Assembly (NCBI GenBank): GCA_017453465.1
Contig: JAFTEV010000008.1
Coordinates: 1-35,606, forward strand
Direction of reading: 5' to 3'
DNA: 35,606 bases
DNA from: Bacteroidaceae bacterium
GTDB lineage: Bacteria > Bacteroidota > Bacteroidia > Bacteroidales > Bacteroidaceae
Shown: positions 2,841 to 32,200 of the stretch, in pieces
Layout: each line of letters opens with the position of its first letter
How positions within the stretch are numbered: position 1 is the first letter of the stretch
The notes under the pieces: generated by a model
What the model was told of the DNA's origin: nothing
What the model saw: only the letters and a program-made list of their open reading frames with translations
Database searches by the model: none
Position numbers and translations under genes: made by a program

Positions 2841-2950
2841 GTACAGACAGTTTGTATGCGTCAAATCAGTTTTGAAGTGACTTATAGACTATTTATTTAA
2901 TATAAAAAATGTGTAATTGACCCTTTACAGATGAAAAAAGTTGAAAAAAG

Positions 2951-2982
2951 TTTGGAGCGTAAAACACAAATCATTACCTTTG
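2951..2982 (+). promoter_or_regulatory. Bacteroidetes-type promoter for the gene at 3015-3797
   Basis: TTTG (2951-2954), 20 nt, then TACCTTTG (2975-2982). This places the transcript start near 2989 and rules out the in-frame ATG at 2931 as the start codon. Confidence 0.75.
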
Positions 2983-3014
2983 CGCCCAAATATAAACTAA
3001 AACACGTATCAATT

Positions 3015-3797
3015 ATGAAGAAACTTTACTTTATTGCTGCCTTGGCAGTATCTGCTTTGACAGCAAATGCACAGGGAACTCTGAATCTGAGTACTTATAG
3101 TGGCACAAACCTTGAAAAGTATGACGGCAAGGCTCTGAACGTGTCTGTTAGCCGTTATGTGTTCAATGGTTGGAACACCATTTCTTTGCCTTTCAGCGTA
3201 AGTGCAGAAGAACTCAATGAAATTTTTGGCAGCGACTGCAAGCTGGAGAGACTGGTTGGCGTAGAAAACGATGGCACCAACATCAAGCTGAACTTTCAGG
3301 ATTGCAAGGAAGATGGTCTGAAGGCTAATGTCCCCTACATTCTTTATTATAATGGAGAGGCTGGAACAAAGAAACTGGCTGTTAGCAACGCTTTGATTCA
3401 GGACGAAGACGCTTCTCTCACTTTCACAGCTGAGGGAACGGGTGAAACTGTGACTATGTCTTGCGCAAAGAAGCAGACCAATGCAACAGGTCTGTACGGC
3501 GTGCTGGCCAAGGACAACGCAGAGGCTAAGTTTGTCAACGTAGATGATGTAAAGAACGGATTCTTTGCTACTCGTTGTTTCATTCAGCTCTCTTCGGGCA
3601 ACAGCACCATGCTGACAACGAACCACATTTCTGCTGACGACGCTACAAGCATCACATCCATTGCCAACGAATCGGACATCGTGGATGTTTACAACATTTC
3701 GGGCGTAAAAGTGGCTTCAGGCATCAAGGCAACAGAAGTTAACCGTCTGCAGAAGGGCATCTACGTTGTAAAGGGTCAGAAGGTTTTGGTTAAATAA
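3015..3797 (+). CDS. Secreted protein with T9SS-type C-terminal sorting domain
   Basis: 260 residues. A signal peptide MKKLYFIAALAVSALTANAQ (cleavage near 20) is followed by a beta-rich region with no enzyme motif I recognise; it contains WNTISLPFSVS and VPYILYYNGE, seen in many Prevotella surface proteins. The last 35 residues have the T9SS CTD pattern: VDVYNISGVKV, a variable stretch, then KGIYVVKGQKVLVK. Such tails direct export through the type IX system and are usually removed or used for surface attachment. The start at 3015 is set by the promoter at 2951-2982. The Trp leader gene begins 38 nt after the stop on the same strand, but I see no terminator between them, so some readthrough into the trp leader is possible. 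Confidence 0.75.
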   Translation: MKKLYFIAALAVSALTANAQGTLNLSTYSGTNLEKYDGKALNVSVSRYVFNGWNTISLPFSVSAEELNEIFGSDCKLERLVGVENDGTNIKLNFQDCKEDGLKANVPYILYYNGEAGTKKLAVSNALIQDEDASLTFTAEGTGETVTMSCAKKQTNATGLYGVLAKDNAEAKFVNVDDVKNGFFATRCFIQLSSGNSTMLTTNHISADDATSITSIANESDIVDVYNISGVKVASGIKATEVNRLQKGIYVVKGQKVLVK

Positions 3798-3835: not shown

Positions 3836-3901
3836 ATGAAGAGGAACAACAGCACATATTGGCGTTGGCAGAGCTTGGGATTAAAAATAATCGTAAGTTA
3901 G
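3836..3901 (+). CDS. trpL: Trp operon leader peptide, 21 residues, with a Trp-Arg-Trp core
   Basis: ATG at 3836 opens a 21-codon frame, MKRNNSTYWRWQSLGLKIIV plus Ser, ending at TAG 3899-3901. Two Trp codons (3860-3862 and 3866-3868) stand one codon apart. Trp is normally rare, so a WRW core directly before a conditional terminator and trpB is the mark of a leader peptide for ribosome-mediated attenuation. The codons for the last three residues (3890-3898) are also the 5' arm of the proposed antiterminator. A ribosome stalled at Trp would leave that arm free, and one that reaches the stop codon would cover it. No strong promoter box was identified immediately upstream. Confidence 0.75.
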   Translation: MKRNNSTYWRWQSLGLKIIVS

Positions 3902-3991
3902 CTGGTCACGCCCCTATGCCCCCTTCACAACAAACATAGCATAGAAGAAAGGAAAGCCTGTCGTACTTACGATGGGCTTTCTTCGTTTTTT
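3890..3991 (+). promoter_or_regulatory. Trp attenuator: mutually exclusive antiterminator and terminator
   Basis: ATCGTAAGT (3890-3898) is the exact reverse complement of ACTTACGAT (3965-3973). The second segment contains the loop and 3' inner arm of the terminator hairpin at 3952-3981, so the two pairings exclude each other. A further stem, CTATGC (3914-3919) with GCATAG (3939-3944), lies between them and may act as a pause or spacer hairpin. With the leader peptide this gives all parts of a classical attenuator: stall codons, antiterminator and terminator. Low charged tRNA-Trp should allow readthrough into trpB. Confidence 0.7.
3952..3991 (+). terminator. Attenuator terminator upstream of trpB
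   Basis: GAAAGCC (3952-3958) pairs with GGCTTTC (3975-3981), with an inner TCGT/ACGA stem (3961-3964 / 3969-3972), followed by TTCG and six T to 3991. trpB starts 91 nt further on, so this is a conditional terminator within the operon leader. Confidence 0.75.
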
Positions 3992-4082: not shown

Positions 4083-5285
4083 ATGACTTATCAAGTTGAC
4101 GAGAACGGCTTTTATGGAGATTTCGGTGGTGCATACGTGCCCGAAATTCTCTTCAAGACCGTAGAAGACCTCAAGAAGGCGTACCTGCCTATCATTGAGA
4201 GCGAAGATTTCAAACAAGCGTATCATGCCTTGCTGAAGGACTATGTGGGTCGCCCTTCCCCACTCTATCTGGCTAAACGGATGAGCGAAAAGTATGGCTG
4301 TCAGCTCTACCTGAAACGCGAAGACCTGAACCACACAGGTGCACACAAGATTAACAATGCACTCGGACAGATTCTGCTGGCCAAGAAGATGGGCAAGAAG
4401 CGCATCATTGCCGAGACGGGAGCCGGCCAGCACGGTGTGGCCACAGCTACGGCCTGTGCGCTGATGAATATGCCCTGCACCGTCTATCAGGGAGCACTGG
4501 ACGTGCAGCGGCAACACGTGAACGTGGAGCGCATGAAGATGCTGGGCGCAACGGTTGTGCCTGTAGAGTCGGGCAACAAGACACTGAAGGATGCTACCAA
4601 CGAAGCCATCCGCGACTGGTGCTGCCATCCGGCTGACACATTTTATATTATAGGCAGCACCGTGGGGCCTCACCCCTATCCCGACATGGTGGCCCGTCTG
4701 CAAAGTGTCATCTCGGAAGAAATCAAATGGCAGTTGCAGGAAAAGATTGGACGCGACTATCCCGACTACCTTGTGGCCTGTGTGGGTGGCGGAAGCAATG
4801 CAGCCGGCACCATCTATCACTACATCGACGACGAGCGCGTGAAGATTGTGCTGGGCGAAGCCGGTGGACTGGGGCTCGACAGCGGACAGACAGCCGCCTC
4901 GCTGCAAGTGGGCAGCGTCGGCATCCTGCACGGCAGCCGCATCAAGTTGATGCAGACCGAAGACGGCCAAATCGTTGAACCCTACTCCATTTCCGCAGGT
5001 CTCGACTACCCCGGCACAGGTCCCATCCACTGCAACCTCTACGAAACAAGCCGCGCACAGGTGTTGGCTGCCAACGACGGCGAAGCACTCCGTGCCGCCT
5101 TTGAACTCACCCGCATGGAAGGCATCATTCCTGCCCTGGAAAGTGCTCACGCACTGGCACTCCTGCCAAAAATCAAAAACCAGTTCACACCAGACAGCGT
5201 CGTAGTGCTGACCGTCAGCGGTCGTGGCGACAAAGACCTCGACACTTACCTGAAATATCAGAAAGACATCTCCAATCAACTATAA
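4083..5285 (+). CDS. trpB: Tryptophan synthase beta chain
   Basis: 400 residues, the usual TrpB length. Catalyses the PLP-dependent condensation of indole with L-serine to give L-tryptophan, in an alpha2beta2 complex with TrpA. The PLP lysine is K89 within [28 protein letters not shown], the phosphate-binding GGGSNA (235-240), [11 protein letters not shown] and ESAHAL are all present. The N-terminus [12 protein letters not shown] is typical of the TrpB1 type that pairs with TrpA. It is the first structural gene after the attenuator and is followed by trpE after 13 nt. TrpB first and TrpA last in the operon is the arrangement I know from Bacteroidetes. Start ATG follows an A-rich leader; no Shine-Dalgarno is evident, as is common in this phylum. 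Confidence 0.97.
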
Positions 5286-5298
5286 TACACACACAGCC

Positions 5299-6699
5299 AT
5301 GACACAATACAAATATCACACGACAACACGCAAAATCCTGGGCGACCTCAACACTCCCGTCAGTGTCTATCTCCGTGTGCGCGATGCCTATCCGCAGAGC
5401 GCACTGATGGAAAGTTCCGACTACCACGACAACAAAAACGCCCGCTCCTTCATCTGTCTGCACCCCATTGCCAGCGTCAGTGTGGAGCACGGCATGGGCA
5501 TCTGCAAATATCCCGACGGTAAGCAAACCAGCACCCCTATCACGCAGAACTACAACACTGCCAGCTGCATCAACGACTTTCTGAGCAGCTTTCAGGTCGG
5601 CGGCGAACTGAACAAATACTGCGGCATCTATGGTTACACGTCCTTCAATGCCGTGCGCTACTTCGAGGACATTGCCGTGAAGGACGAAACGCAGAGCAAG
5701 AACGATGCGCCCGACTTGCTCTACATTCTCTACAAGGTCTATATCATGTTCGACCACTTCAACAACGAACTGACACTCATCGAACTGCTTGAAGACGGTG
5801 AACAGGATGACCTCGACCAGCTGGAGCGCGATGTGAACAGCCGCCCATATCAGACCTTCGACTTCCATCCCGTGGGCGAACCACAATCCACCCTCACCGA
5901 CGACGAACACCGCGAGAACATCCGCCGAGGCATACAGCATTGTCTGCGCGGCGATGTTTTCCAGATTGTGCTTTCGCGCCGATTCTGTCAACGCTACGAA
6001 GGTGACGACTTCAAACTCTACCGCGCCCTGCGCAGTGTCAATCCCTCCCCCTACCTTTTCTACATGGACTTCGGCGGTTTCCGCATCTTCGGTTCCAGCC
6101 CTGAAACCCACTGCCGCATCGAGGACGGCAAAGCCTTCATCGACCCCATTGCCGGCACGACCAAGCGCACAGGCGACAGCGAGCAGGACAAGCAGAACGC
6201 CCTCTACCTGCAGAACGACCCGAAGGAAAATGCCGAACACGTCATGCTGGTCGATTTGGCACGCAACGACCTCTCGCGCAATTGCCACGGCGTACAGGTG
6301 GATTTCTACAAAGACATGCAGTTCTACAGCCACGTCATCCACCTTGTCAGCCGTGTCAGCGGCCAGCTGAACGAAGGTGCCGACCCCGTGCAGACCTTCA
6401 TCGACACCTTCCCTGCCGGCACACTCTCAGGTGCGCCCAAGGTCCGTGCCATGCAACTCATCAGCCAGTACGAGCCGCACTGCCGTGGAGCCTACGGCGG
6501 CTGCATCGGCAACATCGGTTTCAATGGCTACATCAACCAGGCCATCACCATCCGCACGTTTGTCAGTCGCAACAACGAACTCTGGTTTCAAGCTGGCGGC
6601 GGCATCGTAGCCAAGAGTGACGTGGAGTACGAACTGCAAGAAGTCAACAACAAGCTTGGCGCACTGCGCAAAGCCATCAGCATTGCAGAACAATTGTAA
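5299..6699 (+). CDS. trpE: Anthranilate synthase component I
   Basis: 466 residues. Converts chorismate to anthranilate using ammonia supplied by TrpG. ALMESS (35-40) corresponds to the LLESS-type segment that binds tryptophan for feedback inhibition. The chorismate-binding half has GSSPETH, DPIAGTTKRTGD (the PIAGT form typical of anthranilate synthases rather than the PIKGT of aminodeoxychorismate synthases), DLARNDLSR, TFPAGTLSGAPKVRAM, and RGAYGGCIG. Slightly shorter than the roughly 500-520 residues of enterobacterial TrpE but in the usual range for this phylum. trpG starts 22 nt after the stop, consistent with coupled expression of the two subunits. Enzyme-level feedback would complement the transcriptional attenuator upstream. 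Confidence 0.96.
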   Translation: MTQYKYHTTTRKILGDLNTPVSVYLRVRDAYPQSALMESSDYHDNKNARSFICLHPIASVSVEHGMGICKYPDGKQTSTPITQNYNTASCINDFLSSFQVGGELNKYCGIYGYTSFNAVRYFEDIAVKDETQSKNDAPDLLYILYKVYIMFDHFNNELTLIELLEDGEQDDLDQLERDVNSRPYQTFDFHPVGEPQSTLTDDEHRENIRRGIQHCLRGDVFQIVLSRRFCQRYEGDDFKLYRALRSVNPSPYLFYMDFGGFRIFGSSPETHCRIEDGKAFIDPIAGTTKRTGDSEQDKQNALYLQNDPKENAEHVMLVDLARNDLSRNCHGVQVDFYKDMQFYSHVIHLVSRVSGQLNEGADPVQTFIDTFPAGTLSGAPKVRAMQLISQYEPHCRGAYGGCIGNIGFNGYINQAITIRTFVSRNNELWFQAGGGIVAKSDVEYELQEVNNKLGALRKAISIAEQL

Positions 6700-6721
6700 A
6701 ACTGTAATTGTCCAATTAGTT

Positions 6722-7285
6722 ATGAATATCGTAATCATAGACAACTACGACTCATTCACCTACAACCTGAGTCACCTTGTCAAGGAGCTGGGCGCAGAAG
6801 TTACCGTCCTGCGCAACGACAAATTCACGCTGGATACGCTCCAGCCCTTCGACAAAATCATCCTTTCCCCAGGCCCCGGCATCCCCAGCGAAGCAGGACT
6901 GCTGCTCGATGTCATCAAGACCTACGCAGGACAGAAACCCATCCTCGGCGTATGCCTTGGCCACCAAGCCATCGGCGAAGTCTTTGGCGGACGGCTCACC
7001 AACCTCAGCGAGGTCTTCCACGGCGTAGCCACCCCCTGCACCATCACCCAGCCAGACTACCTCTTCCAGGGGCTACCCACCCAAATAGAAATAGGCCGCT
7101 ACCACTCCTGGGTGGTTGACCGAGAAAGCCTGCCCGACTGCCTGGAAGTGACCAGCCAATCGCCCGAAGGCTACATCATGTCATTGCGCCACAAGCACTA
7201 CGACATCCGAGGCATCCAGTACCACCCCGAAAGCGTACTCACGCCCCAAGGAAAACAAATCCTCCGCAACTGGCTCGCCCACTAA
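6722..7285 (+). CDS. trpG: Anthranilate synthase component II (glutamine amidotransferase)
   Basis: 187 residues, a free-standing class I glutamine amidotransferase. It hydrolyses glutamine and passes ammonia to TrpE. The catalytic triad is visible as C78 in GVCLGHQAIGEVFGG and H168/E170 in IQYHPES; the oxyanion-loop motif SPGPGIPSEAG is at about 49-59. The start ATG at 6722 gives MNIVIIDNYDSFTYNL, the standard N-terminus. In some bacteria such a subunit also serves p-aminobenzoate synthesis; its position inside the trp operon argues for tryptophan as its main role. A 91-nt gap with an internal hairpin separates it from trpD. Confidence 0.95.
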   Translation: MNIVIIDNYDSFTYNLSHLVKELGAEVTVLRNDKFTLDTLQPFDKIILSPGPGIPSEAGLLLDVIKTYAGQKPILGVCLGHQAIGEVFGGRLTNLSEVFHGVATPCTITQPDYLFQGLPTQIEIGRYHSWVVDRESLPDCLEVTSQSPEGYIMSLRHKHYDIRGIQYHPESVLTPQGKQILRNWLAH

Positions 7286-7296
7286 AAGCCCGGAAA

Positions 7297-7322
7297 GCCC
7301 AGACATCCCGGATATTCTGGGC
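7297..7322 (+). other. Hairpin in the trpG-trpD gap
   Basis: GCCCAGA (7297-7303) pairs with TCTGGGC (7316-7322), flanked by GGAAA/ATTCC, and is followed by two copies of AAAGCCGGAA. There is no T run, so it is not a terminator. It may influence mRNA processing or stability between the first three and last four genes; function not shown. Confidence 0.45.
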
Positions 7323-7376
7323 ATTCCAGAAAAGCCGGAAAAAGCCGGAAAAAACCACAAAAACCCCAACACACAA

Positions 7377-8372
7377 ATGAAACACTACCTTCAAAAACTC
7401 ATCAACGGCGAGACCCTCTCGCAGGAAGACACCCACAAAATCATGCTGGGCATCACCCAAGAACAGTACAACGTACAGCAAATCGCAGCCCTGCTCATGG
7501 CCATCCAGACACGCGGTGTCACCGTGGCCGAAATGCTCGGCTTCCGTCAAGGACTGCTCGACACAGGCAAGTACATCAACCTGGAGGACTACAACACGCT
7601 CGACATCGTCGGCACTGGCGGCGACGGCAAGAACACCTTCAACATCTCCACCTGCTCGGCATTCGTCATCGCTGGAGCTGGCTACAAGGTGACCAAGCAC
7701 GGCAACGGCGGCAGCACCTCGGTGAGCGGAGCCAGCAACGTCCTCGCAGCCCACGGCGTGAAGTTCACCGACGACGAAACCACCCTGCGCCGCAGTCTCG
7801 ACGAAGCAGGCATCTGCTATTTCCACGCACCCCTCTTCGCCTACGGCATGAAGTACGTAGGCCCCACACGCAAAGCCATGGCCGTGCCCACTTGCTTCAA
7901 CCTGCTCGGCCCCATGGTCAACCCCTGCCACCCCAAGAACTCGCTCCACGGCACCGCCACACAGGGCCAGCTGCGCCTCTACACCAACCTGCACCAGAAG
8001 ATTGGCGACAACTACGGTGTCATCACCAGCTACGACGGCTACGATGAAATCAGTCTGACCAGTGGCTTCAAAATCTGCACCAACTACTTCGAGAAAGTCT
8101 ATACACCCAAGGAACTCGGCTTCAACTACATCAAGCCCGAAGAAATCTACGGCGGCGACACACCCGAAACAGCCAAGACCATCTTCGACTCCGTGCTGGA
8201 AGGCACAGCCACCGAAAGCCAAAAGAGTGTCATCCTGGCCAACGCCGCCTGTGGCATCACCATCATGGACCCCAACCTCAGCATCGAAGAGTCGGTAGCC
8301 ATCGCCCGCGAATCGCTCGAAAGCGGCAAAGCACTCTCCGCCTTCAAGAAGTTCGTCCAGCTCAACTCCTGA
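7377..8372 (+). CDS. trpD: Anthranilate phosphoribosyltransferase
   Basis: 331 residues. Transfers the phosphoribosyl group of PRPP to anthranilate. The PRPP-binding motif GTGGDGKNTFNIST (79-92) and the following KHGNGGSTSVSGASNVL (107-123) are intact, as is GPTRKAMAVPTCFNLLGPMVNP, which binds anthranilate. Length agrees with free-standing TrpD proteins (about 330-345), so there is no fusion to TrpG as in enterobacteria. Follows trpG after 91 nt and precedes trpC by 9 nt. ATG at 7377 gives the expected short N-terminal helix MKHYLQKLI. Confidence 0.96.
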   Translation: MKHYLQKLINGETLSQEDTHKIMLGITQEQYNVQQIAALLMAIQTRGVTVAEMLGFRQGLLDTGKYINLEDYNTLDIVGTGGDGKNTFNISTCSAFVIAGAGYKVTKHGNGGSTSVSGASNVLAAHGVKFTDDETTLRRSLDEAGICYFHAPLFAYGMKYVGPTRKAMAVPTCFNLLGPMVNPCHPKNSLHGTATQGQLRLYTNLHQKIGDNYGVITSYDGYDEISLTSGFKICTNYFEKVYTPKELGFNYIKPEEIYGGDTPETAKTIFDSVLEGTATESQKSVILANAACGITIMDPNLSIEESVAIARESLESGKALSAFKKFVQLNS

Positions 8373-8381
8373 TTACCTATT

Positions 8382-9185
8382 ATGCAAGACATCCTCCAAG
8401 AAATTGTTGCCCACAAGCGCATCGAAGTAGCCCGACAAAAAGAAGCCGTCACTCCGACAGTCCTCCACAGACAAGTGGAAGAACTGCTGGCCACGGCCAC
8501 CGCCCCACACTCCATGCGCCAGTCGCTGGCCCAGTCCGCATCGGGCATCATTGCCGAGTTCAAACGCAAAAGCCCCTCGAAAGGCTGGATAAAAGAAGAC
8601 GGCCTGCCCGACATCATTCCACCCGCCTACGCACATCACGGAGCTGCAGCCCTCTCCATCCTGACCGACGAGCACTACTTCGGCGGCAGCCTGAGATTCC
8701 TGCAAAAGGCACGTCCCCTCGTAGGCTCCTGCCCCATCCTGCGCAAAGACTTCATCATCGACGAATACCAACTGTTCCAAGCCAAGGTCGTAGGAGCCGA
8801 TGCCGTGCTGCTCATTGCCGCCGACCTCACCAAGGACGAATGTCGCCAGCTGGCACAGACAGCCCACCAGCTCCAGCTGGAAACCCTGCTGGAGGTCCAC
8901 ACCGAGGCCGAACTGGACTACCTCTCCGACCACATCGACATGGTAGGCGTGAACAACCGCAATCTCGGCACCTTCCACACCGACGTGCAGAACTCCTTCC
9001 GCCTGTCCGCACAGCTGCCGCAAGACTACCTGCTCGTCAGCGAGTCGGGCATCAGCCAGCCCCAGACCGTGCGCCAGCTGCGCGAAGCAGGCTTCCGTGG
9101 ATTCCTCATCGGCGAAACATTCATGCGCACACCCGACCCAGGCCAGGCCCTGCAAACATTCATCCAACAAGTCACAGCACCATGA
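8382..9185 (+). CDS. trpC: Indole-3-glycerol-phosphate synthase
   Basis: 267 residues, a single-domain TIM barrel rather than the TrpC-TrpF fusion of enterobacteria. Catalyses ring closure and decarboxylation of the Amadori product CdRP to indole-3-glycerol phosphate. Substrate-binding and catalytic segments are visible: IIAEFKRKSPSKGWI (56-70), LTDEHYFGGSL, LRKDFIIDEYQ, VGADAVLLIA, GVNNRNLGTF, and VSESGI with the C-terminal phosphate-binding GFLIGE. Its TGA overlaps the trpF ATG (ATGA), indicating translational coupling. Confidence 0.96.
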   Translation: MQDILQEIVAHKRIEVARQKEAVTPTVLHRQVEELLATATAPHSMRQSLAQSASGIIAEFKRKSPSKGWIKEDGLPDIIPPAYAHHGAAALSILTDEHYFGGSLRFLQKARPLVGSCPILRKDFIIDEYQLFQAKVVGADAVLLIAADLTKDECRQLAQTAHQLQLETLLEVHTEAELDYLSDHIDMVGVNNRNLGTFHTDVQNSFRLSAQLPQDYLLVSESGISQPQTVRQLREAGFRGFLIGETFMRTPDPGQALQTFIQQVTAP

Positions 9186-9805
9186 TTCTGAAAGTATGCG
9201 GCATGAAGTATGCCGACAACATCCGCCAGCTCGACGAAGCCCAGATAGCACAGTGGATGGGCTTCATCTTCTACCCCCGAAGTCCGCGCTACGTGGGCGA
9301 ACCGCCAACCTACCTGCCACGCCACAGCCAGCGCGTGGGCGTGTTCGTGGACTCCACCATCGACGACATCATGGCACATCTGGCCGACTACCAACTGAAC
9401 CTCATCCAGCTGCACGGTAACGAATCCCCGGCCTTCTGCCAAACGCTCCGCAGTCAACTCGACAAGGACGTGCGCCTCATCAAAGCCCTGCAAGTGTCCA
9501 GCGCGACATCCTTCCAAGCCGCAGAAGCCTACGCCCCCGTCATCGACTACTTCCTCTTTGAAACACAATGCAACAGCTACGGCGGCAGCGGCAGACAGTT
9601 CGACTGGACGCTGCTCCACAGCTACCACGGCAACACCCCCTTCCTCCTCACGGGCGGCATAAGCCCAATCGATGCAGAGAGAGTCCGTGCCTTCCGCCAT
9701 CCGCAGTTCATCGGCATCGACCTTAACTCACGCTTCGAGACGGCCCCTGCCCGCAAAGACATACAAGCCATACAAACATTCACGCAACAAATCACACACC
9801 CATGA
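9182..9805 (+). CDS. trpF: Phosphoribosylanthranilate isomerase
   Basis: 207 residues, free-standing TIM-barrel isomerase converting N-(5-phosphoribosyl)anthranilate to CdRP. KVCGMKYADNI contains the catalytic cysteine C6. GFIFYPRSPRYVG, VGVFVD, QLHGNESP, and the phosphate-binding FLLTGGI and GIDLNSRFE are all present. The start ATG at 9182 overlaps the trpC stop by four bases, and its own TGA overlaps the trpA ATG at 9802 in the same way, so trpC-F-A form a coupled block. Confidence 0.95.
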   Translation: MILKVCGMKYADNIRQLDEAQIAQWMGFIFYPRSPRYVGEPPTYLPRHSQRVGVFVDSTIDDIMAHLADYQLNLIQLHGNESPAFCQTLRSQLDKDVRLIKALQVSSATSFQAAEAYAPVIDYFLFETQCNSYGGSGRQFDWTLLHSYHGNTPFLLTGGISPIDAERVRAFRHPQFIGIDLNSRFETAPARKDIQAIQTFTQQITHP

Positions 9806-10575
9806 ACAGAATAAACCAACTCTTCAAGACAAAGACAGAGAACATCCTCTCCATCTACTTCTGCGCCGGCCACCCCACACTGCAAGGCACGGCACACACC
9901 ATCAAGACCCTCCAGCAGCGAGGCATCGACATGATTGAAATAGGCATCCCCTTCAGCGACCCCATGGCCGACGGCCCCGTCATACAGAACGCTGCCACCA
10001 AAGCATTGCGAAACGGCATGAGCCTCAAGACACTCTTCAGCCAGCTCGAAGGCATACGCCCCGAAGTCTCCATTCCACTCATCCTCATGGGCTACCTCAA
10101 CCCCATCATGCACTTCGGCTTCGAAGCCTTCTGCCAACGCTGCACGGAAGTAGGCATCGACGGCATGATTATCCCCGACCTTCCCTTCCGGGACTACTTG
10201 GAGACCTACAAGCCCGTGGCCGACCGCTACGGTCTGCGCATCATCATGCTCATCACGCCCGAAACCAGCGACGAGCGCATCCGCTTCATCGACCAGCACA
10301 CAGACGGCTTCATCTACATGGTCAGCTCAGCCTCCACCACAGGCGCACAACACAGCTTCGACGACACCAAGCAAGCCTACTTCAACCGCATCCACAACAT
10401 GCACCTGCAGCACCCCTGCATGATTGGCTTCGGCATCAGCAACCGTCAGACCCTCCTTTCGGCCCAAGCCAACGCCGCCGGAGCCATCATCGGCAGCAAG
10501 TTCGTCAGTCTGCTCGACCAGACCGGCGACCCAGCCCAGGCCACCGACCTACTGCTCAAAGCCCTCGAAGCATAA
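9802..10575 (+). CDS. trpA: Tryptophan synthase alpha chain
   Basis: 257 residues. Splits indole-3-glycerol phosphate to indole and glyceraldehyde-3-phosphate, channelling indole to TrpB. The catalytic Glu (E46 in DMIEIGIPFSDPMADGP) and Asp (D57) are intact; ILMGYLNPI, PDLPFRDY, and the phosphate-binding GFGISNRQT and GAIIGSKFV follow. Slightly shorter than E. coli TrpA (268). Last gene of the operon, followed 21 nt later by a strong intrinsic terminator. It lies about 4.5 kb from trpB even though the products form one complex. Confidence 0.96.
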   Translation: MNRINQLFKTKTENILSIYFCAGHPTLQGTAHTIKTLQQRGIDMIEIGIPFSDPMADGPVIQNAATKALRNGMSLKTLFSQLEGIRPEVSIPLILMGYLNPIMHFGFEAFCQRCTEVGIDGMIIPDLPFRDYLETYKPVADRYGLRIIMLITPETSDERIRFIDQHTDGFIYMVSSASTTGAQHSFDDTKQAYFNRIHNMHLQHPCMIGFGISNRQTLLSAQANAAGAIIGSKFVSLLDQTGDPAQATDLLLKALEA

Positions 10576-25354: not shown

Positions 25355-26689
25355 CTAATTACTAAGTTTTGTCAACGAGTTAAGATATGGGAAATAATAC
25401 ATCTGGTTGGTCAACCATTCCATGTCGGTGACTTCATCACCTCGCAGAATTTCATCCTCATCATAATAAAGAATCATCAGTACACCCGAATTGCATGGAT
25501 ACTTCACGGGGGCAACGGCTTCAAACGTGAAGGCTGGATATACCATGTTTTTATTCCATATCAATTTCAGGGCACATTCCTCACCAATCCAAATGTCATC
25601 CATATAACCTTCTGCGGATATATTCGATGTCAGGAAATACACTGCCCTGTCGTTAATCACACCTATCATTTGGGGAGACAACGTCAGTTCACCTGTATTG
25701 AAATCATAATTCAGAATCAGCTCATACTTTGAACTCAGTCCTTTCAAATGATAAGTTGCGTCAATGCGGCTGGGAACAAGCGAAACATTTGCTTCAAGCT
25801 GGTTGTTAAAGTAGTGGAGCTTGTAATTGCCAGCATACATGCTGAACGGAATGTAATTTTCATCGTGAGGAACACCCTGGAAAGAGATGTCTTCAGAGCC
25901 TTCATCCACACACTTCAGCACATTGGTTTCGGCATCAAAAGTAAAGGTCTGTGCTGAAACGCCGCCAATTCTGAGTGGAGCATAGAGGCGAATGCCCTGG
26001 TCGTTGAATACAAAATGAGAGGTTATCGTGTCATTGCCATGAATAAACTCAATACTCTTGGTGTTCAAATCCACATCGCCCGTCACTTCGTCTGTTCCCA
26101 TCGTACCGCTCAGAGACTGCACAAAATTCTCGCTAATGGCAATTGTCTTCGCTGCATATTCTTGAGGGCTGTACTTCAGTTTCCTCAAGTACATAGTGTT
26201 GAGGGTCTTCTTGCCATACAGCACAATCAAGTCCTCGCTGATGCTATGAATGACAAATTCAAAGTCGCCGTCCTTTGCCTGATATTCACTGGCACTGGGC
26301 GTAGCAAAGAAATGAAGCAGCGTGTTGTATGTGTCGAATGTCAACACGGGGCCATTGTCATTTGTCAGCCTGTAATAAGTGGTAACGGTAGAGTCAGGAA
26401 TCAGCGAGCAAGCCACCGTCGCCATCAGAGAGTCGAACTTCACTGTATAAACCAAACCGCCATACGTCAAAGTGCGGTCTGGATAATATTCAAACTCCCA
26501 GCCATACTCAGAATTGAGCAGTATTTCTTTTGTCTGATTGATGGTTTTAGACATTCGGACTGTAGCCGAGTCTTCAAAATAATCCTCCTGGTTCTTCAAG
26601 CACGAAGTGAGCAGCAACGATGCCATAAAGAACAAGCCTAATGCCTGAAGAACAGCATTCTTTGTTATTATATTATTGTTCATGTCCAT
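25355..26689 (-). CDS. DUF4302 family lipoprotein
   Basis: 444 residues (two fewer if ATG at 26683 is used). Lipobox LLTSC with C30. DUF4302 features are the segment MSKTINQTKEILLNSEYGWE, then FEYYPDRTLTYGGLVYTVKF and ITLVLYGKKTLN-like YGKKTLNTMYLRKL. DUF4302 genes are regularly next to the zinc-binding metallopeptidase of the Peptidase_Mx1 type and a SusC/SusD pair, exactly as here (24 nt after the peptidase gene). Biochemical function is unknown; being a lipoprotein encoded beside a lipoprotein protease suggests an accessory at the outer surface. Confidence 0.8.
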   Translation of the reverse strand: MDMNNNIITKNAVLQALGLFFMASLLLTSCLKNQEDYFEDSATVRMSKTINQTKEILLNSEYGWEFEYYPDRTLTYGGLVYTVKFDSLMATVACSLIPDSTVTTYYRLTNDNGPVLTFDTYNTLLHFFATPSASEYQAKDGDFEFVIHSISEDLIVLYGKKTLNTMYLRKLKYSPQEYAAKTIAISENFVQSLSGTMGTDEVTGDVDLNTKSIEFIHGNDTITSHFVFNDQGIRLYAPLRIGGVSAQTFTFDAETNVLKCVDEGSEDISFQGVPHDENYIPFSMYAGNYKLHYFNNQLEANVSLVPSRIDATYHLKGLSSKYELILNYDFNTGELTLSPQMIGVINDRAVYFLTSNISAEGYMDDIWIGEECALKLIWNKNMVYPAFTFEAVAPVKYPCNSGVLMILYYDEDEILRGDEVTDMEWLTNQMYYFPYLNSLTKLSN

Positions 26690-29278: not shown

Positions 29279-32200
29279 AAAGTCCTAATCTCAGTGTCAG
29301 CGTAAACTGCTTGGGCATTGGCACAGCCACACCACCGGCATTGGCAAATTCAGGGTCTTGTCCGTTCAGCTTCTTGTCAGCATAAATCAGGAACAGGTTG
29401 GTGGCCTGCAACTTCAGCGAGAGAGAGTTAATCTTCAGCGGGCTGATGAGCGACTGCGGGAAGTCGTAGCTCAGCGAGATTTCCTTCATGCGGATGAAGT
29501 CGCCCTTTGCCACACGTGCCGTAGAGTAATTGTATGAACTGTAGGCAATGCCCAGGTCTGTGTCGTTACGGTTCTGGCGCGTGCTGGCAATGACGGGGAT
29601 GTCAGTAAATTGTTCGTCACCCGGCACAACCCAGCGGTTCTTGAACTCCTTAGGCATAGCCACGAGGTCGTTGTAGCGGCTGGAGAACACGGGGTCGAGA
29701 CGCACCTTGTTGCCAAACGAATAAGTAACGAAAAGGTTCAGCGTAAAGCCCTTAAACTTGAACACATTGCCAAAGCTACCCATGTCTGTGGGGTCGGCAC
29801 TGCCCGAATACTCCAGGAACTTCAGCATCTCTGGGTCGGTCTCCTGGAAGAAGACACCAGTAGTTGTGGGCTGTCCGTCGTGTCCGGCAAAGACAGGGAA
29901 GCCCTCCTTGTTCAGTCCGAGGAACGGGATGGAGAACACGCTACGGACCGGATAGCCTTCCATCGTGAAGCCACTGCCCGATACAAGGTCAACCAGTCGG
30001 CGTGAAGACTCCAGGCTGGTCACCTTGTTGCTCGTGTGAGAATATACAAAGCTGGTCGTCCAGCTGAAACTCTTTGTCTTGATGTTCACGGTGGAGAGGC
30101 TCACTTCAACACCGTTTGAAGTCATCGTGGCAATGTTGCCCATACGCTGCAGCTCGCCACCCACGCCCTGTGTGCTCTGCGGGCCAATCAGGTCGTAGTT
30201 GTTACGCTTATACCAGTCAAACGACAGGCTGATGCGGTCGTTCAGGAAACCTGCCTCCAAGCCCACATTGAACTCATGCTTCTTTTCGTAAGTAAGGTCT
30301 TCGTTGGCCAAATCTTCAAGGTAGAGGTAAGTCTCCTTCACGCTGGCAAACGGACGCCACGGACTGGCACTGCCAATCACGGTGCGCGAGTTGGTCACCG
30401 ACGATGGGCCACGGTCGGCTGTCAGCGAGTATGACAACTTGAGCATGAGGTTCGACAGAGCCGGCTGCAACTTCTCGAAGAAGCTCTCCTCATGAACATT
30501 CCATGCGGCAGCCACGTTCCATGTGGGCAACCAGCGTGCACTGCGGCTCTTGCCCAACTTGTTGGTACCCTCGTAGCGCAAGGTTCCGTTCAGCGTGTAA
30601 CGTCCCTTGAACGAGTAGGTGGCATTGGCGAAGAACGCAGCACTGCGCTCGCGAGTGTTTTCCAGAGAGTAGTAGTTGTTGTTCTGCTCAGCACCCTTCT
30701 TGAAAGCCTGGTAAGCGTAGGCAGGAATTTCGCCCTGCGAATACTGCATACCCCAACCACGGAACCACGTGGCATGACGGTCCACGCTGTTGGTCTCCAT
30801 ACCGCCATATAAATTAATAATGTGCATATCGTCATTGAACGCATCATTATAGCTGACAGCAGCGCGGAAGTCGTAGCCCAACATGCGGTTGTCGGTGCGC
30901 TCCTCAATACCGCCATTAGGCAGGATGGAGATAGGCAGCGCATAGATGTTGTCGGGGTCGGTGTAGAGGTAGCTGTTCTGCTTGCGAATGGTCGAAGTGC
31001 CCATGGCACGGTAAGCCAGAGCCTGGTTCGAGTTGTCCAGGATGTCATGCTCCTGGGTGCTGGCCGAATACTTCACAGCACCCAGCACACTCAGTTCCAC
31101 CTTGCGAATGGGCTTGTAGGACAGCTTGCCCTGCAAACGGAAGTCTGCCACATTGATGCCAATATAGTTGTTTTCCAGCTCCTGGAAGATATTGAACGGA
31201 GCATAGTTGCGCGTGTACTCAGTGTAGGGGTCCAGCGCACGGCTCGTGTTCAGAGCGTAAGAATAGGGGTTGATATCGAAGCTGCGGCTCACTTCGCCCG
31301 ACAGGGGGTCGGTCTGTCGGCTCAGTGTACCCGGAGCCTCCTGCTTACGATAGGAAGCATTGCTGATGACATCGAGTGTCAGCTTGCTCGAAATCTTATA
31401 CGTAGAATTCAGGTTTGCCGTATAGCGTTCCACGGAGTTGCGCTTTGTCCAGCCTGGGTCAACCATCGCGCTGACCGATGCATAATACTGCATCTTGTCG
31501 GTACCACCCGACATCGACACCGAGTGTGTGTGTTGGATGGAGTTCTTGAAGAGCAAGTCGAACCAGTCGGTGTTACGCATCTCAGCCGCACGCAGGTAGT
31601 CGGCGCGAGCCTCCGGGGTGTTGTTCAGCGCATACTGGCCCGTCGTGGGGTTATACTGGCTCAACATCTGATACATCTTGCCATACACACCCGTCTCGCT
31701 GGCATTGGCAGTCTCGGCATAATTCAGGTAGCCCTTCTGCTCCAGTTCCTGATAGACGGACATCTGGTCCTGCGAGTTCATGATGTTGAACGTAGAGTAG
31801 GAAGGTTTCAGGCGCAAGGTGTACTCACCCGTATAGTTGATGCGCGTCTGGCCAGCCTTACCCTTCTTGGTGGTCACGACAATCACACCCGCCATCGCAC
31901 GCGCACCATAGATAGAGGTAGCACTACCGTCCTTCAGAATCTGGAAACTCTCGATGTCGTCGGAGTTCAATCCGGCAATGGCAGAAGAAACCAGCGTGTT
32001 GGCATCGCCCGAACTCAGGTCGTCGGCACTCACGTCAATCACGTCCTCCATGATGACACCATCGACTACCCACAGCGGCTTCGACGAGCCATAGATAGAC
32101 GTGGCACCACGCACACGAATCTTCGGGGCTGCTCCAAACGTACCGCTCACGTTCTGCACGCTGACACCGGCAGCACGACCTTCCAGCGAGCGGCTAATGT

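Follow-up and report, generated by a model that had tools for sequence, protein, structure and literature searches.

A probable tryptophan attenuator upstream of trpB in a Bacteroidaceae genome: a divergent relative of the Bacteroid-trp leader with a candidate antiterminator on the terminator loop and 3' arm

We analysed a stretch of 35,606 nucleotides (hereafter the window) from a gut member of the family Bacteroidaceae (order Bacteroidales), the genome of which (G000) comprises 3.16 Mb in 108 contigs. The window contains a trp operon in the order trpB-E-G-D-C-F-A (Table 1). TrpG, TrpD, TrpC and TrpA scored above the curated cut-off, and TrpE and TrpF are named by their best matches below it. 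Upstream of trpB, direct reading gives a small open reading frame (ORF) of 21 sense codons, with an ATG at 3836, a TAG stop codon at 3899-3901 and two TGG codons, at 3860 and 3866, with an Arg codon between them. From the end of this ORF to the trpB start codon are 181 nt, and from the T-run of the hairpin that follows the ORF to the same start codon are 92 nt. The upstream gene, at 2931-3797, lies on the same strand as the leader and has a weak match, far below cut-off, to a model of a T9SS-dependent surface endonuclease; the terminator hairpin lies ~150 nt past its end. A DNA search of the window's own genome did not detect a second copy of the leader, and in this genome model R1, which we built from 45 leaders of the genus and its near relatives, gave 1 match only.

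Table 1. Features of the trp leader region and operon in the window
Feature	Positions	Strand	Basis
Leader peptide ORF, MKRNNSTYWRWQSLGLKIIVS	3836-3901	+	Sequence; Trp-rich leader also 5' of trpB in relatives
1:2 (protector) helix, outer part: 3855-3867 with 3906-3918	3855-3918	+	Folding; alignment of 45 leaders
1:2 (protector) helix, inner part	3869-3904	+	Folding; paired cells in 45 leaders
Candidate antiterminator 5' strand, ATCGTAAGT, formed by the final codons of the ORF	3890-3898	+	Sequence; pairing comparisons
Hairpin CTATGC (3914-3919) : GCATAG (3939-3944)	3914-3944	+	Alignment; folding
Predicted intrinsic terminator: stem 3950-3964:3969-3983, loop ACTT 3965-3968, T6 3986-3991	3950-3991	+	Sequence; folding; alignment
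Candidate antiterminator 3' strand, ACTTACGAT, terminator loop and upper 3' arm	3965-3973	+	Sequence; pairing comparisons
trpB, first gene of the operon	4083-5285	+	TIGR00263 above cut-off
trpE, trpG, trpD, trpC, trpF, trpA	5299-10575	+	NCBIfam matches

The segment 3836-3995 folds at -55.7 kcal/mol compared with a mean of -35.35 kcal/mol for shuffled sequences (z = -5.75; 0/200 shuffles as good). In the predicted structure, the inner 1:2 helix pairs 3869-3877 and 3879-3883 with 3888-3892 and 3894-3904 and sequesters the 5' strand of the candidate antiterminator, while the outer 1:2 helix overlaps the Trp codons. The hairpin at 3914-3944 competes with the outer 1:2 helix and forms in the folding when the Trp codons are covered. 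The terminator has a core of 13 pairs (3952-3964:3969-3981), and its stem is followed by CG and the six T. The last codons of the ORF form a run of 9 Watson-Crick pairs with the terminator loop and upper 3' arm, which was equalled in 18/20,000 shuffles of the leader end. A first-pass annotation of the window had reported the 21-codon frame ending at 3901 with its two Trp codons, a terminator hairpin at 3952-3981 with six T, and exact complementarity between 3890-3898 and 3965-3973. Direct reading confirmed each of these, with a terminator stem that can be extended to 3950:3983. The same annotation regarded the attenuator as complete; the parts that it listed are present, but it had overlooked the 1:2 helix and the hairpin at 3914-3944, which emerge from folding and alignment.

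Promoters in Bacteroidetes carry a -7/-33 motif. Between 3797 and 3836 of the window, no clear promoter of this type was detected before the leader; AATTTTTG ends 2 nt 5' of the leader ATG and is not convincing as a promoter. Upstream of the leaders of relatives, a TAnnTTTG-type promoter was found in 60/103 cases compared with 8 in one round of shuffling, and in many of these relatives, unlike in the window, TTACTTTG lies 8-51 nt upstream of the leader. The idea of a 'leaderless leader' was dropped as unproven; a -7-like element at a distance of no more than 14 nt was present in 14/40 genus-like leaders and in 43/800 shuffled ones.

The leader is conserved. All 45 genomes of the genus contain trpB and, in the 44 genomes read (G003, in which trpB is cut by a contig end, is left out), every upstream region of this gene holds a Trp-rich leader ORF followed by a terminator, with the ORF containing YWWW in 28 and YWRW in 16 genomes. 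In a wider set of loci, a leader with WW or W.W was found upstream of trpB in 131/153 loci, i.e. 132 calls by our script minus L094, in which the ORF lies behind trpA. Thirty loci (L032-L061, 28 with trpB) were retrieved with the Rfam family RF01692 itself and, therefore, are not independent evidence for the presence of the leader; among the loci retrieved by trpB alone, some of which represent the same genome in two collections, the leader was present in 102/124. No credible leader was detected in 22/153 loci, of which 10 (including L094) carry trpA ahead of trpB and the other 12 begin with trpB (L107, L111, L112, L115, L117, L121, L122, L123, L124, L127, L136 and L141). Several of the latter 12 instead show a promoter-like TTTGC element near the start, and these 12 relatives may have lost the attenuator. 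In the 21 loci that were leaderless according to the script, model R1 found nothing below E 0.01 (L141, 0.17).

Leaders were chosen by the WW or W.W rule and terminators by a simple stem finder. Among the 132 called leaders, those with a terminator call gave 105 distinct leaders after removal of duplicates; L094 and L137 had no terminator call and were dropped. Alignment A1 contains 45 of these 105 leaders, from the genus and near relatives. In most members of the genus, the core TCGTAAGT is read TCG TAA and, thus, contains the stop codon, whereas a shifted frame in L031, L144 and the window reads the same nucleotides as ATC GTA AGT TAG. That the nucleotides of the core are kept despite the shift in frame points to selection on the RNA.

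Leaders of this type also occur in other settings. In L156 and L157, the trp operon is divided into two units, trpBEG and trpDCFA, with a similar Trp leader before each of them (matches at 31664-31797 and 36612-36738 in the L156 record, and at 25544-25672 and 32119-32248 in L157), which suggests that copying of the attenuator accompanied the split of the operon; G234 has two matches to model R1 with a spacing like that in L156 and L157. A leader of the same type is found before a gene for a TrpB-like PLP enzyme, a second tryptophan synthase beta-like gene, in L159 (16444-16562, minus strand), L160 (25801-25919) and L163 (720-842). A family search, performed on L163 alone, placed its gene above cut-off in PRK12391/TIGR01415. 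Finally, L082, L083, L087, L088, L095, L098, L099, L101, L103 and L105 have short leaders (e.g. MNNRAYWWWRLS), in which the candidate antiterminator strand lies at or after the stop codon and has a different sequence, yet matches the terminator loop and 3' arm.

The Rfam family RF01692 is named Bacteroid-trp ('Bacteroidete tryptophan peptide leader RNA') and goes back to Weinberg et al. (2010; PMC2864571); a term search of the main text of that paper meets the name in a row of Table 1 alone. The window leader resembles RF01692 in its occurrence in Bacteroidetes upstream of trpB (28 of the 30 RF01692 loci retrieved lie near trpB), in an NTYWWW/NTYWWR-type peptide, in a 1:2 helix around the 3' end of the leader ORF, the 3' strand of which contains GUCGUAAG, and in a terminator 5' arm that begins like the end of the RF01692 model, GGCUUGUC. 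It differs in that its two Trp codons are separated by Arg and in that the Rfam model ends in the terminator 5' arm and lacks the antiterminator pairing. RF01692 did not match the window at the gathering cut-off, nor up to E 10. Other Rfam matches in the window (mir-433, PyrG leader and others) were far below their cut-offs and were rejected.

Across the genus, the curated RF01692 cut-off of 49 bits was reached in 0/45 genomes (best score, 43.1 bits), and sub-threshold matches with E up to 4.1 were located at the trpB leader in 28/45 genomes, the window not included; at the E limit of 10 used for these matches, the control gave a match in 4/14 genomes. One genome has a second sub-threshold match (G012:C29:20492-20636) with 33.3 bits, the same score as that of its trpB leader. 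Conversely, model R1 found the RF01692 loci L032, L048, L055, L057 and L060 at E 6.4e-12 or better. Because RF01692 matches the genus weakly and R1 matches RF01692 loci strongly, we treat the window leader as being of the RF01692 kind by descent; formally, it is outside the Rfam cut-off. Among 301 genomes of the family, R1 matched 198 (at E 0.01) and RF01692 matched 70 (at E 0.001; 52 over cut-off), with the caveat that the thresholds differ and that weak R1 matches may be bare terminators.

Within the 45 aligned leaders, the 1:2 helix and the terminator together had 95.6% of cells paired, and 8/28 pairs had changed on both sides, with 0/500 shuffles as good; sliding the partner strand lowered pairing to 32-51%. 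By element, the cells paired were 98.1% for the terminator stem (both-side changes in 5/13 pairs), 98.6% for the inner 1:2 helix (8 pairs counted) and 87.6% for the outer 1:2 helix (both-side changes in 2/7 pairs). The hairpin CTATGC:GCATAG was paired in 91.9% of cells. The candidate antiterminator helix was 97.3% paired and, together with the extra hairpin, 95.1% of cells were paired, with 12 cells changed on both sides (0/500 shuffles). The number of pairs changed on both sides in the antiterminator structure was only 4, which was equalled in 82/500 shuffles, and the number of pair types was equalled in 84/500; therefore, the evidence for the antiterminator within these 45 leaders is mostly conservation.

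The wider set of 105 leaders adds joint change. Between lineages, the two pairing sequences are swapped together, as in TCGTAAG:CTTACGA and TCGTGAG:CTCACGA, and further jointly changed pairs are GCTGTAAGTC:GACTTACGGC, ACGTTGTG:CACAACGT and ACAGTTGTG:CACAACTGT. The loop contains CTT in 51/68 leaders with TAAG and in 5/19 with TGAG, while it contains CTC in 0/68 and 9/19, respectively; 2 leaders have CGAG and 16 have no such core. When terminators were permuted among 48 types, 0/20,000 permutations reached the observed pairing of 835 (mean, 686; maximum, 767), a result that, like the shuffle tests, is inflated by kinship among the sequences. In many of the RF01692-retrieved leaders, the match is just 5-7 bp (L034, L038, L040, L042, L044, L045, L047, L056 and L059) and the loops (ACCAA, ACCT and others) of many are unmatched to the leader end; L032, L033 and L041 have a match of 8-9 bp. 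In total, the sequence comparisons indicate that relatives retain four elements: the leader ORF, the terminator, the 1:2 helix and the pairing of the leader end with the terminator loop and 3' arm. This pairing is maintained also where its two strands have changed jointly. Regarding the checks that the first-pass annotation had proposed, a Trp-rich leader frame is present in 44/44 genomes and the terminator stem compensates within the genus and near relatives; compensation in the antiterminator was borne out in part, since this helix is mostly invariant in the genus and near relatives and changes jointly in the wider set.

In classical attenuators, the terminator 5' arm is segment III, with which the antiterminator pairs. 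The leader could follow this enterobacterial geometry if an antiterminator on the 5' arm had escaped recognition and if the match to the loop and 3' arm merely reflected a resemblance of segment 2 to the 5' arm; indeed, segment 2 and the 5' arm both hold TCGT(A). For each of the 105 leaders, we determined where in the terminator the leader end finds its best helix. This helix involved the 5' arm in 6 leaders, i.e. without the loop in L034, L036, L037 and L039, which were all retrieved with RF01692 and have CGACAG or CGGCAG opposite CTGTCG, and with the loop in L085 and L128; in 6 more, it involved the 3' arm alone and no loop bases, which also speaks for this explanation. By contrast, the loop and the 3' arm were both part of the best helix in 93/105 leaders (80 with these elements only and 13 with an additional 1-2 nt of the 5' arm). 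Moreover, the loop bases, which are unpaired inside the terminator, change with segment 2 (CTT/CTC versus TAAG/TGAG). We consider the enterobacterial geometry unlikely.

Two other explanations concern the role of the hairpin. Instead of working through an intrinsic terminator, the leader could use Rho or affect trpB translation, and the start of trpB only 92 nt past the T-run would be compatible with this; however, a covarying terminator stem and the T-rich sequence are kept, which a translational or Rho-dependent mechanism would not need, and we regard this explanation as very improbable. Still less credible is that the hairpin is the ordinary terminator of the gene at 2931-3797 and that the small ORF is incidental. 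The position and orientation of that gene fit such a role and, among the leader-positive loci with more than 1.4 kb of upstream sequence, a relative of it was found in 33/112, which makes it a conserved neighbour for some of the loci. However, the 79/112 loci in which no such gene was found still keep the leader before trpB, and the same leader type precedes trpD in split operons as well as TrpB-like genes. Having weighed these explanations, we favour, with a probability of about 0.9, that the leader controls the trp operon by ribosome-mediated transcription attenuation and is a divergent relative of Bacteroid-trp (RF01692).

We examined the competition between the structures by staged folding, in which the RNA covered by a ribosome with an assumed front edge is hidden and the 3' end emerges stepwise. 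For the window, folding without a ribosome gave the 1:2 helix and then the terminator, and with a ribosome at the stop codon it gave the terminator. When the ribosome was placed at the second Trp codon, the extra hairpin formed and the candidate antiterminator was the best structure for exposed ends 3968-3976; it tied with the terminator at 3978 and lost beyond. With a ribosome at the first Trp codon, it was best only for ends 3972-3974. Thus, the antiterminator of the window folds only under two joint conditions, namely a ribosome at a Trp codon and incomplete exposure of the terminator. The same pattern was observed for the 105 leaders: with a stalled ribosome, the antiterminator was best in 101/105 at the end of its own partner strand and in 99/105 two nt on, compared with 88/1050 two nt on with shuffled spacers, 13/105 and 5/105 at the same two points without a ribosome, and 1/105 with a ribosome at the stop codon.

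Once the whole terminator of the window is exposed, it is more stable than the antiterminator even with a stalled ribosome (-26.8 versus -19.4), and the complete terminator wins despite the stalled ribosome in 102/105 leaders. In these models, the greater stability of the completed terminator is the main weakness of the attenuator reading. Equilibrium folding was rejected as the whole explanation, and the switch would therefore have to be kinetic, with the terminator loop as the likely toehold. According to a passage in PMC1183508, RNA polymerase hides 8 nt of RNA; with this value, the two states are about equal as the polymerase reaches the T-run. Stalling at Trp would give the antiterminator a head start of several nt, just before or as the polymerase crosses the T-run, the exact timing depending on the number of nt that the polymerase hides. 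In principle, the lower terminator stem could form as a pseudoknot beside the antiterminator.

We suggest the following mechanism. When Trp is plentiful, the ribosome would run to the stop codon and cover 3890-3898 or, if it has already left, the 1:2 helix would re-form; in either state, the terminator would fold and transcription would stop near 3991. When Trp is scarce, a ribosome stalled on W9 or W11 would cover the 5' side of the 1:2 helix. In this state, 3914-3919 would pair with 3939-3944, which may serve to shorten the antiterminator loop, and the free 3890-3898 would capture the emerging terminator loop and extend the pairing along the 3' arm ahead of hairpin closure. The terminator would then be blocked and RNA polymerase would read into trpB. 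Of these steps, ribosome stalling, the kinetic decision and the outcome for transcription are inferred. We also favour, with some reservation, a more general proposal, namely that in such 'loop-first' attenuators the leader strand mimics the terminator 5' arm, the loop is the toehold, and a short kinetic decision near or across the T-run takes the place of a stable capture of the 5' arm; this could be the general arrangement of trp leaders in a large part of the Bacteroidaceae as delimited by GTDB, some of the RF01692 members among them.

The leader has in common with attenuators an ORF with Trp codons as well as a candidate antiterminator and a terminator that exclude each other and are kept in relatives; it departs from the classical arrangement in that the antiterminator uses not the 5' arm but the loop and 3' arm. 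In layout, which is the sole basis of this comparison, it resembles the E. coli trp attenuator (trpL) in its control codons, the 1:2 helix, the competition between antiterminator and terminator and the masking by a ribosome at the stop codon, and differs from trpL in the part of the terminator that is captured. The first-pass annotation had recognised the logic of enterobacterial attenuation, and the relatives support this logic, but with the antiterminator on the loop and 3' arm, not on the 5' arm. In the general scheme given in PMC1183508, segment III is common to the antiterminator (II:III) and the terminator (III:IV). The same source describes a his attenuator with one more hairpin, located after the pause hairpin and before the terminator; the window likewise has an extra hairpin (3914-3919:3939-3944), which follows the 1:2 helix and precedes the terminator, with the difference that it competes with the outer 1:2 helix. 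A literature search, judged by titles and the beginnings of abstracts and with thin coverage of subscription journals, found no experimental Bacteroidetes trp attenuator.

In total, the sequence evidence indicates that the window leader is very probably a real and well-conserved trp attenuator and that the first-pass annotation recognised it correctly. The kind of leader is ordinary and already catalogued for the phylum (RF01692); what is possibly new is an antiterminator on the terminator loop and 3' arm instead of the 5' arm. Our analysis extends the catalogued Bacteroidetes trp leader to lineages missed by the Rfam model and supplies a candidate antiterminator with an unusual geometry. If confirmed, this would be a case of control of an amino-acid operon in Bacteroidetes by coupling between ribosome and RNA polymerase.
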